A DNA stretch of 64,000 nucleotides, taken from the NCBI GenBank assembly GCA_030431455.1, contig JAUIJE010000008.1, forward strand, positions 62,001 through 126,000. Direction: 5' to 3'. Positions 45,912-55,043 of this stretch are shown here, one piece after another (position 1 is the first letter of the stretch; each line of letters begins with the position of its first letter). The notes under the pieces were generated by a model that saw only the letters and a program-made list of their open reading frames with translations, ran no database searches and was not told the origin of the DNA. Made by a program: the position numbers and the translations under genes. Origin of the DNA: a bacterium (lineage in GTDB: Bacteria > Myxococcota > UBA727 > JAUIJE01).

Positions 45912-46811
45912 ATGTCCCCCGCGGCACTGTTCGGCACTCTCGTCCTCGTGGCCAGCGATCCCGCGGCCGCGGCGCCCGCGTCCGATGCCGGCGCGCTCAT
46001 CGCCGAGGGCGAGGCCTTGCTCGACGAAGACCCGGCCACCGCCCAGGAGCAGGCCGAGTGGGTGCTCGGCCGCGGCGACCTCGGACAAGCCGAGCACGCC
46101 CGCTGCTTGTCTTTGCTCGCCCGGGCCGCGGCCGCGGCCGGCCACGACACGGTGGCCGCGACCGCCCGCCGGCGGGCCGCGATCCTCGCCGCCCCCGACG
46201 ACGCGGTGACCGCGCGCGCCCTGCGCCTCGACGAGGGCGACCTGAGCGGGGTCGAAGTGCGGCTGTTGCACGACGAGGAGGGCTGGGTCGCGGGGGTGCG
46301 GATGGGCCCGGGGACCGAGCCCCACGCCCTGTCCACCCCCCGGCCGGTGTTGTTCTGGCCCGCGGGCCCCGAGGGGGCGCCGGCCACGGTGTGGCTGATC
46401 ACGGCCCAGGGCAATGCCATTGTCTCGCTGAAGGTCGAGTCGCCGCCCGCGCCGGACGCGCCCGCGCCCACGGGGCGACCCGGCCCGCCCCCGCCCGGTG
46501 ACGACGACGCGGGGTCGCGCCTGTGGGCGCCGTGGCCTTGGCTGTCTCTGGTGGGGGCTGGTGCAGCGGGATTGGGTGTGGTCTGCTTTTCCTCGGCCGC
46601 GATCACCTTTGTGCTCGCCCAGGACGGACGGTTGGCGTGGGAGCCGCTGTCCAACCTCGCGGTGGCGGCGATGGTCACCGGGGCGGTGCTGTCGGTCACC
46701 GGGGTGGCGGTGGTGGGGGCCGACCGGTTGCTGTTTGGGGGAGACAATGAAGTTGCAGAAAAGACACCTGATGTGGGGCCTGGCCCTGTGGCTGTGGTGT
46801 ACGGCGAGTAG
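45912..46811 (+). CDS. Secreted or membrane-anchored hypothetical protein
   Basis: 299 residues from ATG 45912 (SPAALFGTLVLVASDPAAAAPA signal-like start). An Ala/Glu-rich helical region with TPR-like character (LLDEDPATAQEQAEWVLGR, ARCLSLLARAAAAAG) is followed by a beta domain and a Pro-rich spacer (about 190-210). Two TM helices end it (LVGAGAAGLGVVCFSSAAITFVL, LAVAAMVTGAVLSVTGVAVVG). The 3' end overlaps the next gene by 65 bp in another frame, an unusually long same-strand overlap. No family is recognised. Confidence 0.62.
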   Translation: MSPAALFGTLVLVASDPAAAAPASDAGALIAEGEALLDEDPATAQEQAEWVLGRGDLGQAEHARCLSLLARAAAAAGHDTVAATARRRAAILAAPDDAVTARALRLDEGDLSGVEVRLLHDEEGWVAGVRMGPGTEPHALSTPRPVLFWPAGPEGAPATVWLITAQGNAIVSLKVESPPAPDAPAPTGRPGPPPPGDDDAGSRLWAPWPWLSLVGAGAAGLGVVCFSSAAITFVLAQDGRLAWEPLSNLAVAAMVTGAVLSVTGVAVVGADRLLFGGDNEVAEKTPDVGPGPVAVVYGE

Positions 46812-48057
46812 CGCCCAAGACGACAACCCCCTCGCGGGCATGCTCGAGGCGATGCAGGCCGCGGCCCAACCTCCCGCGCGCTACGAGCTCCCCGGCACCC
46901 GAGCGGAGATGACGCTCCCCCAGAAGGGCTACGTGTTCGCCGGGCAGTCGGCGCCGGTGACGCTCACCCACGTGGCCAGCTCGGCACAGATTCAGCTGCT
47001 GGTCGGGGACGGCTTTTCCCCGGGCACGGTCAAGAAGGCCATGGCCATGCAACTGGAGGGCAAGGTCACCGGGGCGAACAACCCCAAGCACCGGGGGCGC
47101 GCGTTCGCCGCCACCGGCACGCGCACGGTGTTCGGGATGTCGATGCCCACCTATGTCCACGCGGTGGCGTCCCGAGAGCCGCGCCCGTCGGTGTGGATCC
47201 TGGCCTCGGCCTCGGGCGAGATTCCCGCCGAGGTGAAAAAGGCCGCGGACAAGATCGCCCGCAGCATCACGTTCTTGCCCCTGGGCAAGGTCAAGCCGGT
47301 GGTGTTGTCTTTCGGCGGCGGCTTCGACGGGGTGACCGCCACCCTGACCCTGCCCGGGGACGGCGAGGCCACGGAGAACACCAAGACCTCGTTCGTGGCC
47401 ACCTACGCGCTGCTGCCCGGGGGCCTCCAGGTTCGATGGGTGCGTTCGCAGAGCGCGACCGAGGCCTTGGGCCAGGCCGTCGAGAGCACGGGCGGGGACG
47501 TGGGCCGGGCGAAGTCGTTCGCGAAGGGCAAACGCGTGACGTTCGAGCACGGTGCCGACACCGATCGCATGCGGGTCACGGCATGGGCGCGCCAGGTCGG
47601 TCCCCAACACGTCTTGCTGGTGACCGAGGCGCACGCGGCGGTGTTCGACGACCCGCAGCACCAAAAGCGCTTTGACAAGATCGTGAAGTCCTTGAAGGTG
47701 ACGCGCGGACAACAGCCCGACGCCCGGCTCAGCGCGGCCCTCACCGGGTTGATGCTCTACAACTACACCGGCAGCGAGAACCACTCGTCGACGCTGGGCT
47801 GGTCGCTCTGTCCGGGGGGGGTGGCGTACGATCGCACCCACAGTTTTTTCTCGAGCGATTTTGGCTCGTCGATCAAAGACGCCACCAACGAGCGGGGGGA
47901 ATGGAAAGTGGTCCGGGCCGGGCAAGGGTTCGACCTGTGGGTCCGCTTCCCCTCGAAGGGCGAGTCCCTCTACAAGTTCAAGAACCTGGCCCGCGGGGGC
48001 GCGACCCACGTCTCGGGCAAGGTCTGGCTCTCCAAGCGCACCGGGTGTGGTGGATAG
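46747..48057 (+). CDS. Secreted hypothetical protein
   Basis: 436 residues with a signal peptide (KRHLMWGLALWLWCTASSA). The first half looks like two related alpha/beta units (RAEMTLPQKGYVFAGQSAPVTLTH, then ARSITFLPLGKVKP; GVTATLTLPGDGEATENTK, then FDKIVKSLKV), as in periplasmic proteins with duplicated lipoprotein-type domains. The C-terminal 100 residues contain YNYTGSENHSSTLGWSLCPGG and two cysteines. No family is recognised. Its start lies inside the previous gene (65-bp overlap), so the two are co-transcribed. Confidence 0.65.
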   Translation: MKLQKRHLMWGLALWLWCTASSAQDDNPLAGMLEAMQAAAQPPARYELPGTRAEMTLPQKGYVFAGQSAPVTLTHVASSAQIQLLVGDGFSPGTVKKAMAMQLEGKVTGANNPKHRGRAFAATGTRTVFGMSMPTYVHAVASREPRPSVWILASASGEIPAEVKKAADKIARSITFLPLGKVKPVVLSFGGGFDGVTATLTLPGDGEATENTKTSFVATYALLPGGLQVRWVRSQSATEALGQAVESTGGDVGRAKSFAKGKRVTFEHGADTDRMRVTAWARQVGPQHVLLVTEAHAAVFDDPQHQKRFDKIVKSLKVTRGQQPDARLSAALTGLMLYNYTGSENHSSTLGWSLCPGGVAYDRTHSFFSSDFGSSIKDATNERGEWKVVRAGQGFDLWVRFPSKGESLYKFKNLARGGATHVSGKVWLSKRTGCGG

Positions 48058-48476: not shown

Positions 48477-51400
48477 ATGGGCCGTCAGATTCTGTTCACG
48501 TTCAGTGTGTTGGCGCTGGTTGTCGCCGCCGGCTGCCCGCAGCCGGTGGACCCCAACGAGGCGGTCACCCCGCCCCCCACCGACAACGGCAACATCACCA
48601 TCGACGAGGTGGTGGACAACCCCACCGACCCCAACGACAACGTGGGCGGACCGGACAATCCCATTGTCGAGCCCCCCCAAGACTGCGGCGCGCTCCCGGT
48701 CAACGGCCAAGTCCTCGACTGCTATGCCCTGTTGTCGGCGGACAACTACTGCGGCGTGGTGTTCGCCGACCCCGCGACCCCCAACTTCCAGCTCGTGAGC
48801 GCCTGCGGCCAATGTGACGGCACCCTCTTCTCCGCCCCCACCGGGGTCGACTGTGGCAACGGCGTGACCGGGGAAGAGACGCCGCCGCCCCCCTTGCCCG
48901 AGAGCACCTGCAAGTCGTGTCACGCGCCCAACGATTACGACGGACTCCACTCCATCGAGGACCCCCACCCCTGGAACGGCCCCCTCGACTGCACCACCTG
49001 TCACGGGGGCGACGGCACCGCCACCAACCCCGTGTACGCCCACATCTGCCCGCCCCCCGCGGTGGGCAATCGCCAGCAGCAGATTCTGGACCCCCGCGCC
49101 TTCTTCCTCTCCTTCACCACCGCGGGGGTCCAGTTTCTGCCTGACTACACGTGCGCCACCCAAGGCGGCGGCAGCAAGACCGTGCAAGCGGTGCAGTGGC
49201 TCAACTTCATCAACCCCGGCGACATCCGCTCCGCCAAGCTTGGCCTCGGCTGTGGCACGTGCCACGGCGCGGGGGCCGAGGCCGCCGGCTACAAGGGCGG
49301 CGACGTCGTGGCCAAGGTCGAGCGCAGCGTGATGGGCCAAGCCTCGGGCCTCAACTCCGGGAGCCGCCACACCGCGGGCATCGAGAATGTGTATGCAGAT
49401 CGCCGCGGCAAGCTCAGCGGCACGGACTATAACACCATGGGCGACTTCTCCGCCACCGACGTGACCAACCCCGAATACAACCCCGCCACCCGCTCGGTGG
49501 GCGAGGTCGGCTCGTTGCGCATGGCCGAAGTGAGCACCACCGACGGCTTCCAGTTCGACACCAGCTACACCGCCGCTGACGTCAACAACGCCAACAACAA
49601 CAACAACATCAACCTCGACAACTACCCCAACGGCATCAACAACGCCCGGGCCGCGGACCTCTACCAGGAGATCCTCAACCAGGCCTGCACCGGCTGCCAC
49701 CTGCAGAACGCGTACAACAACAACCGCGCGGGCGACTACCGCTCCACCGGGTGCTCGGGCTGTCACATCGAGGTCAACAAGCTCGGCCGCGCCACCGGCC
49801 GCGACCCGAATACCCCGGTCTACGAGCCGGCGGATCCCAACTTCCTCACCCCCGGCGAACACATGCACGTCGCCGATCACCGCGTGCGCAACGTGATGAA
49901 GTTCCCCGGCCAAGGGGTCAACACGGTGGTGCAAGGCATCGGCCTGCAGAACTGCCTGGTGTGCCACGAGGGCTCCAACCGGACCACGTTCCAGTACCAG
50001 GGCATCCGCCTCGACCAGAACCAAGACCTCACCAACGGCAACTTCTACCCCAGCAACAACACCGTGGCCTTCACCAATGCCGCTGGATTGTTCGGCGAGA
50101 ACCAGTTCTTCAACAACCGCAACATCAACCAGTGGATCGAGACCGAGATCTGGGAAGCGGACATCGCCAACCTCATCGGCCAGGCCGGTCAAGACGCCAC
50201 CCCCCCCGACGTCCACCACGAGGCGGGCATGGGGTGCGCCGATTGCCACTCCACCGGCGCCACCCACGGACGCGGCCAAATCTACTCGCGGATGAAGATC
50301 CAGACCCACGAGAACGACGTGCTGTGTGAGACCTGCCACGGCACCATCGATGGCTATGCCCAAACCGACGGCACGCACATCCTCACCCAAGACGGCCATC
50401 CCCTGACCAACACCTACGCCGACGGGGACCCCAGCGAAGGTCAGTTCTGGCTTGTGTCCAAACTCGACGGGTCCACCCACTACATCCCCCAGACCCTCGA
50501 CGTGGTGAACGGCGCGTCTGGGGAGTTTGGCAAGCAGTACCCCATCGGGGCCGCGCGCCAGGGTTCAATCTTCAACTACGTCGCGTCCGCGGCCATGGGC
50601 CGGTACAACGGCGGGCTCGACCTCGCCGACGGCATGGGTCCGTTCCAGCCGCACATGGACCCCAACGCCTTCCAGGTGACCAACAACTTCAGCCACTCCG
50701 ACGGGGTCGCGGGCCAGCCCAACCAGGGCATGGAGTGCTACACCTGCCACGCGTCCTGGCAGAACAACTGCGTGGGTTGTCACCTCGACGCCAACTTCGA
50801 CAACAACCCCCAGAACTTCTTTTACAGCCAGGTCATCGGCGAGCGCATCTACTTCAACTTCGCGGCCAACTTCGTGTACCAAAACCCGGTGGACTTCATG
50901 CTCGGCATCAACGACCGCGGCAAGATCTCCTCCTACCAAGGCATGCATCGTTTCTGGAGCTACACCGACTTCAACAACGACACATCCAATCGCATTGCCA
51001 CGGGTGACCGCAACGGCCTGGGATTCGACCCCGCGCTGCTCAACGCCAACCGCAACGACCAGCCCGCCCTGGAGAACAACCCCTTCACCCCGCACTCCAT
51101 TCGGGCCCGGGCCACCCAGAACCAGGTCGGGGCGCGGGCGTGTCTCAACTGCCACCTCTACAACAACAACGCGACCTTCGCCTACGACCAGAACCAGGAC
51201 GAGTGGGCCAACGTGCAGGACTACATCGCCAACACCGAGGACTACGCCAATGCCATTCCCTTCAACGTGAACATGGCCTACGGGCTCGGCTCTGACCTGT
51301 GGCTGTTCGACGCTGACGGCAACGCCGTCGTCGACACCAACAACGCCCCGGTCTACAACCTCGACCGCATCGTCGAGCAGAACGGCGCGTCCAACTCGTC

Positions 51401-51647
51401 ACATGCCCACCCGCTCCTCAACCCGCTGAACATCAACCCGCGCTACGCCGACCCGGTGGGCACCAACAACGTGCCGGTGGTGCGCCCGTTGACCGCCACG
51501 GTGCTGCAGCGGCTCCAGCTGCTCAACAACCAAACCGGCCTGACCGACATCTACCTGCGCAACCTGGTGCCGGGGCAAGACCCCGCGGCCACACACGCGT
51601 ACGCGTACGACTCGTCGTTCAAAGACCTGGCCTACGCCAACCAGTAA
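48477..51647 (+). CDS. Eleven-heme c-type cytochrome lipoprotein, copy 1
   Basis: 1056 residues, ATG 48477 after GGAGGAGG. The lipobox VVAAGC is followed by an acidic Asn/Asp/Pro linker. Eleven CxxCH motifs follow: CKSCH (145), CTTCH, CGTCH, CTGCH, CSGCH, CLVCH, CADCH, CETCH, CYTCH, CVGCH and CLNCH (889). A conserved 160-residue tail without heme follows. Between motifs the sequence is very rich in Asn, Gly and Asp (for example ADVNNANNNNNIN). It should be an envelope-anchored electron-transfer protein, perhaps surface exposed. No family name is recognised. A terminator follows, then a paralogue. Confidence 0.88.
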   Translation: MGRQILFTFSVLALVVAAGCPQPVDPNEAVTPPPTDNGNITIDEVVDNPTDPNDNVGGPDNPIVEPPQDCGALPVNGQVLDCYALLSADNYCGVVFADPATPNFQLVSACGQCDGTLFSAPTGVDCGNGVTGEETPPPPLPESTCKSCHAPNDYDGLHSIEDPHPWNGPLDCTTCHGGDGTATNPVYAHICPPPAVGNRQQQILDPRAFFLSFTTAGVQFLPDYTCATQGGGSKTVQAVQWLNFINPGDIRSAKLGLGCGTCHGAGAEAAGYKGGDVVAKVERSVMGQASGLNSGSRHTAGIENVYADRRGKLSGTDYNTMGDFSATDVTNPEYNPATRSVGEVGSLRMAEVSTTDGFQFDTSYTAADVNNANNNNNINLDNYPNGINNARAADLYQEILNQACTGCHLQNAYNNNRAGDYRSTGCSGCHIEVNKLGRATGRDPNTPVYEPADPNFLTPGEHMHVADHRVRNVMKFPGQGVNTVVQGIGLQNCLVCHEGSNRTTFQYQGIRLDQNQDLTNGNFYPSNNTVAFTNAAGLFGENQFFNNRNINQWIETEIWEADIANLIGQAGQDATPPDVHHEAGMGCADCHSTGATHGRGQIYSRMKIQTHENDVLCETCHGTIDGYAQTDGTHILTQDGHPLTNTYADGDPSEGQFWLVSKLDGSTHYIPQTLDVVNGASGEFGKQYPIGAARQGSIFNYVASAAMGRYNGGLDLADGMGPFQPHMDPNAFQVTNNFSHSDGVAGQPNQGMECYTCHASWQNNCVGCHLDANFDNNPQNFFYSQVIGERIYFNFAANFVYQNPVDFMLGINDRGKISSYQGMHRFWSYTDFNNDTSNRIATGDRNGLGFDPALLNANRNDQPALENNPFTPHSIRARATQNQVGARACLNCHLYNNNATFAYDQNQDEWANVQDYIANTEDYANAIPFNVNMAYGLGSDLWLFDADGNAVVDTNNAPVYNLDRIVEQNGASNSSHAHPLLNPLNINPRYADPVGTNNVPVVRPLTATVLQRLQLLNNQTGLTDIYLRNLVPGQDPAATHAYAYDSSFKDLAYANQ

Positions 51648-51668
51648 CAGTTCGTTCCAAGACCCTTG

Positions 51669-51710
51669 GGGGCCTCCGCACTCTCTCTCCAGCGGGGGCC
51701 CCTTTTTTTT
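51669..51710 (+). terminator. Intrinsic terminator after cytochrome copy 1
   Basis: GGGGCCTCCGC (51669-51679) pairs with GCGGGGGCCCC (51692-51702) with one wobble, then eight T. It sits 22 bp past the stop codon at 51647, so the two cytochrome genes are probably separate transcripts. Confidence 0.9.
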
Positions 51711-51848
51711 GGGTCGCGCCGACCTACATCTCCTCCCCGCTCGCATCGGCCCGATGTCGGAGTGCAAGCCCCGGTTGTTCGCTGCATGCTGACAATGTTG
51801 TTCGGCTGTACCGTATAATCAGCGGTTCCATTCGACGGGGGAGGTCGC

Positions 51849-54800
51849 ATGGCGGGGGACATCGGTTGTCGGCGGGGGGCTTGGCCCGCCGTGCTCGGGG
51901 TGCTGGTTGGGGTGACCGGGTGTTGGGACCCGCCGCCCGCGCCCACCGCCCCCGACCCGGTGGCGCCGCCCGCGTCCGGGCATTTCCGGCCCGTGCTGCC
52001 GGGGACCGACGCGCCCGGGCCCGGCCCCGGGCCGATGCCCAACCCGTGGGAGCCGTGTGTTGACGACGACGACATCGTGTCGCCCGAACCATGCGATGCG
52101 ATCCCCTTGCCCGGCGGCGAGGTGCTCACCTGCTCGGACCTGTTCGACCCCGAGACCTACTGCGCCCATGTGTTCGACAATGTCCCTGGCGACGGGCTCT
52201 TGGTGCTCGGCGCCTGCGCTGCTTGCGACCCCCTCTTCCTCACCATCGCCGACGAGGTCACCTGTGGGCCCACCCCGTTGCCCGACATCCCGCCCCCGGC
52301 CCCGCCGCCGGGGACCTGCACCGCGTGTCACGCCCCCGCCGGCTACGATGGTGCAGGCTCATTGGGCGATCCCCATCCCTACACGCCCCGGTCGCAACCG
52401 ATGCGGTGCGTGACCTGCCACGGCGGCGACGACACCGAGACCAACCCGTTCTATGCCCACGTGTGTCCGCCCCCCGCGGTGGGCAACCGCCAGGACCAGG
52501 TCCTGGACCCTCGCGCGTTTTTCCTCGCCAACACCTTGGTCGGGGTCGCGACCCTGCCCAACTACACCTGCCCCACCAGCGACGGCGGGACCCGGACGGT
52601 GACCGCCACCGATTGGCTCGCGTTCCAAGACCCCGGCGACCTGCATGGCGCGCGGGCGGGCAAAGGATGCGGCACCTGCCACGGCCCCAGCGCCGACGAG
52701 GAAGGCCTGGCCGGGGGGGACATCGTGACCCCGCTGTGGCGCAGCGTGATGGCCCAAAACACCGGCATCTTCACCGGCGCGCGCCACGGCGCGGGGATCG
52801 AAAATGCCTTCCACGAGCGACGCGGCCTCGACGCCAACGGCCTGGCCGACCTCGGGGTCAGCGACGTGGACAACCCGGACTTCGACCCCGTCACCCGCCT
52901 CGTCGGTGAGATCGGCTCGCTGCAAGCCAACAAGGCGATCAGCACCGGGGCCTTTCTCACCGCCACCGGTTACGCCGCGGATGACGTCTCCACCGCCAAC
53001 AACACCAGCGACCCCAACGCGGACAACTTCCCCAATGGGACATCCAATGAATATGCATCCTATCTCTACCAGGAGATCTTGACCCAGGCCTGCAGCGGCT
53101 GCCACCTGCAAAACCGCGCCGGCAGCACCCAGGCCGGCGCCTACCGCCGCTCCGGGTGCTCGGCCTGTCACGCGCGCCCCTCGATGCTCGGGCGCTTCAA
53201 CGGCCACGACCCCATGGTCAGCACCTGCGAGCCCCTCGACCCCAACTTCCTCACCCCGGGCGAACACGCCCACGCCCTCGACCACCGCGGCCGCAGCGTC
53301 GCCACGCTCCCCCAGGGCCCCGACCCCACCGCCCTGGTCGCCGGCGTCGGCGATGACAGCTGCCTGCTGTGCCATCAAGGCTCCAACCACACCGTGTTCC
53401 AATACCGCGGCTGGCGCCTCGACGAGAACCAGGACCTGACCAACGCGGCGTTCTACCCCCGGGCCGACCCGGTGGCCTTCACCAATGTATCTGCATTGTT
53501 CGGCGAGAATCAGTTCTACATCGGGCGCCACATCAACCAATGGATCGCCACCGAAATTTGGGAACAGGACGTGGCCGACCTCCGGGGCCAAGCCGGGCAG
53601 GACAGCACCCCCGCCGATGCCCACCACGACGCGGGCCTCGGGTGCGTCGACTGCCACACCACCGGGGCCACCCACGGCCGCGGCCGGCTGTTCAGCCGGA
53701 TGCGCGACCAGACCCACGCCCACGACGTGAGCTGCGAGACCTGCCACGGCACCATCGATGCGTACGCCGCAACCGACGGCGTGCACCCCCTGACCCAGGA
53801 CGGGGCCCCCCTCGACCACATCTTTGTCGAAGGCGATCCCCAACAAGGCGATCTCTGGCTGGTGTCCAAGCTCAACGCCACCCTGCACTACGTGCCCCAG
53901 GTCAAAGACGTCGTCGACACCACATCGACCAAGCTCTACCCCCCGGGCGCGACCCGGCAGGGCCCGATGCTCAACCGGGTGGCCTCGGCGGCGATGGGCC
54001 GGGCCGACGACGCCGGCGACGGCAGCGACGGCACCGGACCGCTTCAGCCGCATTGGCCCACGACCACCGTCAACCCCGCCGTCCCCTTCGCCCACAGCGA
54101 CGGGGTGGGCGGGACCGCGGGCCAAGGCCTGGCCTGCATCACCTGTCACGCCAGCTGGCAAAACAACTGCATGGGCTGTCACCTCGACGCGGCGTTTGAT
54201 GATCGCCCCGACACGTTCTTGTACAGCCTCGCCGACGGGGAGCGCGCGCACCTCCAAGTGAGCCCCGCGGTCCGGTACCAAAACCCCGTCGACTTCATCC
54301 TCGGCGTCGGCGACCGCGGCCGCATTGTTCCCTATTTCGGCCTGCACCGGTTCTGGAGCTACACCGACCGAGACAACAACACCTCGCTGCACATCGCCAC
54401 CGGCGACCGCAACGGGCTCGGCGACGATCCCGGCCTGCGTGATCCCAACCGCCACACCCTCCCCGCCCTCGGCAGCCACCCCTTCACCCCCCACACCGTG
54501 CGCGGCCGCCCCACCATGACCGCGGTGGGCCCCCGGCAATGCCTCAACTGCCACCTGCCCCACCCCGACGACGTGTACGCCCACGATCAGGACGGCACCG
54601 CGTGGTCCGGGGTCGCCGACTACATCGCCAACACCGCCGACTACGCCCGCGCCATCCCGTTCAACGTTCGGATGGCCTACGGCCTCGGCTCAGGGCTTTG
54701 GCTCGCCGACGCCAACGGGGACTTCGTCGTCGACAGCAACAACCCCCCGGTCTACGACCTCGACCGCATCGTCGAGGAAAACGGCGCCTCCAATGCCGCG

Positions 54801-55043
54801 GACGGCCACCCCCTGCTTGACCCCTTCGCCATCAACCCGCGTTACCTCGACCCCGCCGGCACCAACCACGCGGGGGTGGCGCGGCCTCTCACCGCCACCG
54901 TGCTCGCCCGGTTGCAGGCGCTCAACGCGGTGGGCCTCACCGACATCTACGTGCGCAATCTCATCCCCGGCCAGGACCCCGCCACCACCCACGCCTATGC
55001 CTACGACGCATCGTTCAAAGACATTGGCTATGTGGGCCAATGA
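51849..55043 (+). CDS. Eleven-heme c-type cytochrome lipoprotein, copy 2
   Basis: 1064 residues, ATG 51849, with lipobox LVGVTGC. It is collinear with copy 1: the same eleven CxxCH positions (CTACH, CVTCH, CGTCH, CSGCH, CSACH, CLLCH, CVDCH, CETCH, CITCH, CMGCH, CLNCH). It shares blocks such as DPRAFFL, NFLTPGEH, LFGENQF, NCxGCHLDA, HRFWSYTD, RNGLG and LIPGQDPA-THAYAYD. It is less Asn-rich and more Asp/Ala-rich than copy 1. Tandem duplication with divergence suggests related but distinct electron partners. Three exact CAATG-N4-TGCA copies lie in this gene. The stop abuts that of the convergent gene in the palindrome TGATCA. Confidence 0.88.
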   Translation: MAGDIGCRRGAWPAVLGVLVGVTGCWDPPPAPTAPDPVAPPASGHFRPVLPGTDAPGPGPGPMPNPWEPCVDDDDIVSPEPCDAIPLPGGEVLTCSDLFDPETYCAHVFDNVPGDGLLVLGACAACDPLFLTIADEVTCGPTPLPDIPPPAPPPGTCTACHAPAGYDGAGSLGDPHPYTPRSQPMRCVTCHGGDDTETNPFYAHVCPPPAVGNRQDQVLDPRAFFLANTLVGVATLPNYTCPTSDGGTRTVTATDWLAFQDPGDLHGARAGKGCGTCHGPSADEEGLAGGDIVTPLWRSVMAQNTGIFTGARHGAGIENAFHERRGLDANGLADLGVSDVDNPDFDPVTRLVGEIGSLQANKAISTGAFLTATGYAADDVSTANNTSDPNADNFPNGTSNEYASYLYQEILTQACSGCHLQNRAGSTQAGAYRRSGCSACHARPSMLGRFNGHDPMVSTCEPLDPNFLTPGEHAHALDHRGRSVATLPQGPDPTALVAGVGDDSCLLCHQGSNHTVFQYRGWRLDENQDLTNAAFYPRADPVAFTNVSALFGENQFYIGRHINQWIATEIWEQDVADLRGQAGQDSTPADAHHDAGLGCVDCHTTGATHGRGRLFSRMRDQTHAHDVSCETCHGTIDAYAATDGVHPLTQDGAPLDHIFVEGDPQQGDLWLVSKLNATLHYVPQVKDVVDTTSTKLYPPGATRQGPMLNRVASAAMGRADDAGDGSDGTGPLQPHWPTTTVNPAVPFAHSDGVGGTAGQGLACITCHASWQNNCMGCHLDAAFDDRPDTFLYSLADGERAHLQVSPAVRYQNPVDFILGVGDRGRIVPYFGLHRFWSYTDRDNNTSLHIATGDRNGLGDDPGLRDPNRHTLPALGSHPFTPHTVRGRPTMTAVGPRQCLNCHLPHPDDVYAHDQDGTAWSGVADYIANTADYARAIPFNVRMAYGLGSGLWLADANGDFVVDSNNPPVYDLDRIVEENGASNAADGHPLLDPFAINPRYLDPAGTNHAGVARPLTATVLARLQALNAVGLTDIYVRNLIPGQDPATTHAYAYDASFKDIGYVGQ
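53483..53495. repeat. Exemplar of a dispersed bipartite motif CAATG-N4-TGCA
   Basis: CAATGTATCTGCA is here. Exact matches, counting both orientations, lie at 6155-6167, 7592-7604, 12820-12832, 26378-26390, 35035-35047, 37456-37468, 37915-37927, 52352-52364, 53045-53057 and 53483-53495. One-mismatch relatives occur at 16917, 29382, 29859, 32226, 40537, 49385 and 63748. All exact copies are inside genes and use codons otherwise rare here (AAT, GTA, TCT, GCA, ACA). The role is unknown. Confidence 0.6.

Follow-up and report, generated by a model that had tools for sequence, protein, structure and literature searches.

The window, by which we mean the whole 64 kb stretch of DNA that was analysed (G000:C7:62001-126000 of the 7.7 Mb genome of a myxobacterium-type bacterium), carries two plus-strand genes in tandem, ORF1 (48477..51647) and ORF2 (51849..55043), both of which start with an ATG preceded by a purine-rich ribosome-binding site and encode predicted lipoproteins of 1056 and 1064 residues, respectively. 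As the earlier note had described, each protein contains exactly 11 CxxCH motifs for c-type haem, in matching order, together with a lipobox; CX3-4CH motifs are absent from both. Since only about 0.03 CxxCH motifs would be expected from the cysteine and histidine content of ORF1, the number observed in this protein is not due to chance. The lipobox cysteine, which follows the signal peptide, is residue 20 in ORF1 (AAGC; 48534..48536, plus strand) and residue 25 in ORF2 (VTGC; 51921..51923, plus strand), and it is retained in at least 90% of 51 aligned homologues. Over residues 26–1056, the two proteins share 56% identity. The region from the first to the last CxxCH motif comprises residues 145–893 in ORF1 (48909..51155), where it constitutes the ExtM-like core discussed below, and residues 157–902 in ORF2 (52317..54554). 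Ahead of it lies a haem-free, cysteine-rich module (48678..48869 in ORF1), which has diverged in ORF2 (52086..52268; 33% to the module query). This six-cysteine module also occurs in two haem-free, lipoprotein-like ORFs on another contig (G000:C5:59877-61298; L005), and is thus common to otherwise unrelated proteins of this genome.

The two genes are separated by an intrinsic terminator (51668..51711, plus strand) consisting of a 12-bp GC-rich hairpin followed by eight T residues (z -3.83 versus shuffled sequences), of which a simple terminator scanner picked up just a weak form. The strong terminator proposed previously was therefore recovered, and it is this element that speaks for the possibly independent regulation of the two genes suggested at the same time; a search for sigma-70-type promoters at the pair found none. 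A predicted secreted protein of 438 residues without a Pfam match is encoded directly upstream on the same strand (46741-48054), and the annotated neighbours include RNase E/G, Glu/Leu dehydrogenase, DapF, a GH113 hydrolase, RimK, an M19 dipeptidase and housekeeping genes. The observation that no porin or partner cytochrome is adjacent was confirmed, as the 64 kb window contains no multihaem ORF besides ORF1 and ORF2. When genome contigs, viral contigs and plasmids were scanned with single proteins, no match was returned, and only the alignment query was successful. A plasmid or viral origin of the pair was rejected.

Searches of Pfam and NCBIfam with the single sequences returned only generic c3/c7/c554 domains and sub-threshold matches to ExtM. 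The ExtM model NF040943, an NCBIfam equivalog with a curated cut-off of 800 bits, is matched by all 15 of the 15 aligned family members (best E-value 1.4e-63), the window proteins themselves scoring 72.9 and 56.3 bits, below that cut-off. In profile comparisons, hhalign aligned the family with 12-haem ExtM-like proteins at E 2.8e-33 over 655 columns, i.e., along the whole haem core, and a 700-residue group with 10–11 haems was matched at E 1e-84. A control comparison with a 23-haem family gave just E 4e-4 over 70 columns; the CxxCH motif therefore does not account for the kinship with ExtM, and an artefact of this kind was ruled out. Judged from these profile comparisons, the family, which the earlier note had not recognised and which is itself uncharacterised, is related to the 12-haem ExtM over its full length, although it scores below the cut-off of the model.

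By the criteria applied here, the pair belongs to none of the families with which a comparison had been proposed, namely OmcA/MtrC, OmcS/OmcZ, octahaem cytochromes and hydroxylamine oxidoreductase (HAO). For OmcA/MtrC, there was no match to TIGR03507 and no fold match in the PDB, and the matches to the MtrC/MtrF II/IV domain model were weak, with Pfam scores under the cut-off. OmcS and OmcZ were not matched in PDB sequence searches using either single sequences or profiles. Full-length similarity to NrfA, HAO or octahaem tetrathionate reductase (OTR), together with their pattern of eight (or five) haems and a catalytic motif, was likewise lacking: HAO and OTR were not matched at all, and NrfA-type chains only locally, over two haems (E 1e-4 at best). 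Neither sequence nor profile searches of the PDB identified a solved structure matching the pair over its length, and a Foldseek search with the cytochrome model also returned no match, which is a weak negative, as AlphaFold models lack haem and this one has little regular structure.

The alignment query identified 200 relatives on genome contigs, mostly in Planctomycetota. When only loci with at least 8.5 kb of upstream DNA were counted (n=34 for Planctomycetota), 29 of the 34 encoded, in this order and on one strand, an oxidoreductase, a cytochrome with about 23 haems, a barrel protein, a 7-haem lipoprotein cytochrome and, as the last gene, the 11-haem homologue; the remaining five contained a partial cluster. 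A DUF2959 lipoprotein is often found ahead of the set. The oxidoreductase combines an N-terminal membrane helix, two 4Fe-4S clusters (Fer4) and a YpdA-like FAD domain (Pyr_redox) with a ferric-reductase-like C-terminal membrane part that contains two WX3HX13H motifs, as does the oxidoreductase of the window genome. Two such motifs also define the inner-membrane component of PCC3 and PCC4, which are putative conduits (PMC5566968). The barrel protein has no Pfam match; its model is a 22-strand barrel (pLDDT 84) for which Foldseek retrieved outer-membrane barrels in the PDB, both porins and ushers, and phenylalanine is the C-terminal residue in 43 of 45 barrel proteins. Going by gene order and predicted domains, the planctomycetal cluster looks like a porin-cytochrome electron conduit of the kind represented by putative PCC3.

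A comparable set of genes is present elsewhere in the window genome. About 25 kb of contig C20 encode a pentahaem protein, a barrel, a 51-haem lipoprotein, the oxidoreductase, and 20- and 10-haem cytochromes. The oxidoreductase and the barrel match their counterparts in G006, a genome of the same order, at E 2e-143 and E 1e-32, respectively, and the N-terminus of the 51-haem protein is similar to the 7-haem protein of G006. In G006, the 11-haem homologue lies directly beside the genes for the oxidoreductase, a 30-haem cytochrome, the barrel and the 7-haem protein. The 51-haem protein (G000:C20:157177-161445; L153:178-4446, minus strand) is a predicted lipoprotein of 1422 residues with 51 CxxCH motifs, or about 28 residues per haem, which places it among the larger haem counts for a single protein; kinase-like and sigma/anti-sigma-like genes adjoin it. 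The FeS/FAD oxidoreductase is encoded a second time by a solitary gene (G000:C8:432063-434594; L154), the membrane part of which is read in another frame or with an in-frame TAG, possibly because of decay of this copy or a frameshift.

Among Myxococcota in general, the 11-haem gene usually stands alone, and none of the seven named loci contains a cluster. Two genomes of the same order with close homologues (G001 and G002, of which G002 has the closest homologue) encode neither the oxidoreductase nor the barrel. Within a sample of 173 myxococcotal genomes, the oxidoreductase was found in 45, the 11-haem protein in seven and both in five; the oxidoreductase is thus present in 5 of 7 genomes with the family versus 40 of 166 without it, a weak association in which shared ancestry is ignored (Fisher p 0.014). 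The myxococcotal conduit consists of the oxidoreductase, 20- plus 10-haem cytochromes or a fused 30-haem cytochrome, and the barrel, with an additional 9–51-haem protein in most of the loci read. As most Myxococcota that have the conduit lack the 11-haem protein, the latter is dispensable to it. One locus, in which the frame is cut by the locus edge, encodes a protein with at least 40 CxxCH motifs beside the barrel, the 10- and 20-haem cytochromes and the oxidoreductase (L185:1-5130; G056:C10). In two single-contig genomes (L181 and L182; G047 and G063), which we take to be Anaeromyxobacter dehalogenans 2CP-1 and Anaeromyxobacter sp. Fw109-5, the oxidoreductase, multihaem cytochromes and barrel occur at a locus without the 11-haem protein; Anaeromyxobacter is a known metal reducer.

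The window genome contains at least four copies of the family, the tandem pair and at least two more. Contigs C11 and C13 each begin inside a further copy that is cut off at the contig start, leaving N-terminal fragments of about 100 residues from two different genes (57–59% to ORF1). The two contigs share their first 127 bases and differ immediately thereafter, the pattern left by an assembly graph with k = 127 when the bodies of two copies are so similar that it cannot tell them apart; these bodies are absent from the assembly. In a tree of 51 homologues, ORF1 and ORF2 are joined to each other (support 99) and then to a gene of Myxococcales SP234 (support 100), with a long stem (3.1) leading to this clade. 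The rate of evolution of ORF2 is about three times that of ORF1 (branch lengths 1.18 vs 0.37). The tandem pair and the collapsed copies together suggest gene amplification accompanied by divergence.

Two departures from the usual architecture were seen among the relatives. The SP234 protein, the closest homologue (L032:5710-10080), has about ten short cysteine-rich repeats inserted ahead of the haem domain, and it is probably the one family member with a Pfam match to DUF7107. In three genomes (L045:8078-12574, L046 and L047; G003, G010 and G008), a longer variant of 1415–1598 residues with 7–9 haems is encoded, adjoined in two of the three by 9-haem and 14–15-haem cytochromes; judged by eye only, the C-terminal part of the L045 protein resembles a propeller-type repeat domain.

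Taking these results together, we think it probable that ORF1 and ORF2 are outer-membrane cytochromes that perform the terminal electron transfer at the outer end of a conduit, and that they have been amplified and are diverging. Extracellular or trans-envelope electron transfer, the role that the earlier note put forward, is the best-supported reading in light of both the planctomycetal cluster and the conduit genes in the window genome itself. Electrons from cytoplasmic NAD(P)H or ferredoxin would pass through the FAD and 4Fe-4S centres to the pair of b haems that the PCC3/4-type oxidoreductase has in the membrane, from there to the long periplasmic multihaem cytochromes, and on to the outer-membrane barrel with its lipoprotein cytochrome, which would hand them to the 11-haem protein and thereby to an extracellular partner, such as a mineral, humic substances or a redox protein of another cell. 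The NAD(P)H/ferredoxin end of the conduit suggests that electrons are exported. The pair would face outward and couple physically to the conduit encoded on C20; our confidence is lowered because the genes are unlinked to that conduit, because G001 and G002 lack the oxidoreductase and barrel, and because most conduits occur without an 11-haem protein. The long stem of the window clade and its loss of several conserved histidines also count against this role.

Haem and histidine conservation bears on the alternative that the two proteins are multihaem enzymes which reduce or oxidise a specific substrate, for example an oxyanion, with at least one haem that lacks a distal ligand as the active site; this is the multihaem oxidoreductase that had been offered as a second possibility, and we retain it as an unlikely one. 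All 11 haem motif columns are kept in each of the 51 aligned homologues, which come from Planctomycetota, Myxococcota and a few other groups; strict CxxCH motifs number 9 or 10 in some of them, where one or two sites take the CX3CH or a longer form. Only nine histidines outside these motifs are conserved in at least 98% of the 51, as against 11 haems, and the window clade lacks His 247, 848, 897 and 913 (mature numbering), which most planctomycetal homologues keep, so that a haem with an unusual ligand is possible in this clade. Conversely, most planctomycetal homologues have about 15 candidate distal histidines, enough for 11 bis-His haems, and ligation of this type throughout may be feasible for the family. 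The ratio of about 96 residues per haem (1056/11 = 96 in ORF1) would leave space for non-haem domains, and both the weak match to NrfA, which is local and confined to two haems, and the full-length kinship with ExtM-like proteins, ExtM being part of an ext cluster linked to selenite and tellurite, agree with an enzymatic function. Against it, no solved multihaem enzyme is matched over the length of the proteins, there is no conserved enzyme-type partner gene, and the role of ExtM is putative, the selenite/tellurite phenotype having been shown for ExtI and not for ExtM (PMC5877670). An alignment of all 15 relatives contained no stretch conserved enough for scanning.

Somewhat less likely still, the proteins could be outer-membrane lipoproteins that face the periplasm, or be secreted into it, and serve there to relay or store electrons. 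Their sequences reveal no signal for surface export, no barrel is adjacent in the window, and Geobacter ExtM has been reported in the outer membrane, the inner membrane and the periplasm (PMC5877670); in Planctomycetota, however, the gene order has the homologues at its outer end, behind the barrel and the small cytochrome, and proteins with 20–30 haems already supply the periplasmic wiring. That the copies are relics of a lipoprotein repeat family with little present function, as the tandem duplication, the collapsed extra copies and the faster ORF2 branch might suggest, is very improbable given that both frames stay open for more than 1000 codons, retain each of the 11 haem motifs and are preceded by clean ribosome-binding sites, and that the haem sites are invariant across phyla.

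With these results, large multihaem proteins that databases leave unnamed gain a family, a set of partners and a testable role, and a complete route for electron export (or import) is indicated in Planctomycetota, including the complete-genome isolates Pla163, Poly30 and Pla86. To our knowledge, extracellular electron transfer has hardly been studied in this phylum. The oxidoreductase of the same conduit is also present in 45 of the 173 Myxococcota sampled. More tentatively, and with rather less confidence than we place in the role of the pair, we propose that undecahaem lipoproteins of the ExtM-like type form a mobile module at the end of an undescribed envelope-spanning conduit, which would be driven by an NAD(P)H-oxidase-like inner-membrane protein in which ferredoxin, FAD and b-haem parts are fused. 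The conduit would be common to Planctomycetota (the three isolates included) and many Myxococcota, and the module would have been amplified in the window lineage.

Among known systems, the closest in sequence is ExtM, a 12-haem cytochrome of the ext cluster (extHIJKLMNOPQS) of Geobacter sulfurreducens (PMC5877670), with which the family shares homology over the haem core, all 15 members matching its model (NF040943). However, while ExtM has 12 haems and the ext genes ExtHIJKLNOPQS as neighbours, the window proteins have 11 haems and no ext neighbours, and they are nearly twice as long as the ExtM model. With OmcA/MtrC they have in common a large size, multiple haems and a lipid anchor, and they would also share a position at the outer end of a conduit. 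Putative planctomycetal porin-cytochrome clusters have been described in general terms (PMC10732223, PMC13264449, PMC5566968), and our search of the literature, subscription papers and supplements aside, found no description of the 11-haem family or of the cluster with the fused oxidoreductase. In karst metagenome-assembled genomes (MAGs), porin clusters centred on undecahaem or >20-haem cytochromes have been reported, another PCC group has ferredoxin-NADP reductase genes nearby, and two PCC-bearing MAGs are Planctomycetota (PMC13264449); the undecahaem group can be likened to the planctomycetal cluster by description only, as neither sequences nor a family are given there.

Close counterparts in organisation are PCC3 and PCC4 (He et al. 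2017, PMC5566968), porin-cytochrome conduits that are themselves putative. PCC3 cytochromes have 22–39 residues per haem, compared with about 96 for the 11-haem protein, and ORF1 thus lies outside this low range; in addition, the window genes are not adjacent to a conduit, unlike those of PCC3 clusters. PCC3 is characterised by a barrel, an extracellular and a periplasmic multihaem cytochrome and an inner-membrane protein carrying the WX3HX13H motif twice, all encoded in a single cluster. Such a cluster is absent from the window locus, the barrel, large multihaem cytochromes and inner-membrane protein lying together on C20, and is found in Planctomycetota. There, the inner-membrane part differs from that of PCC3/PCC4 in being fused to 4Fe-4S and FAD modules, but the 11-haem homologues are accompanied, as they would be in a PCC3/PCC4-like conduit, by a barrel, by long cytochromes of the periplasm and by an inner-membrane protein that has these two motifs, and a set of this kind is also present in the window's own genome.
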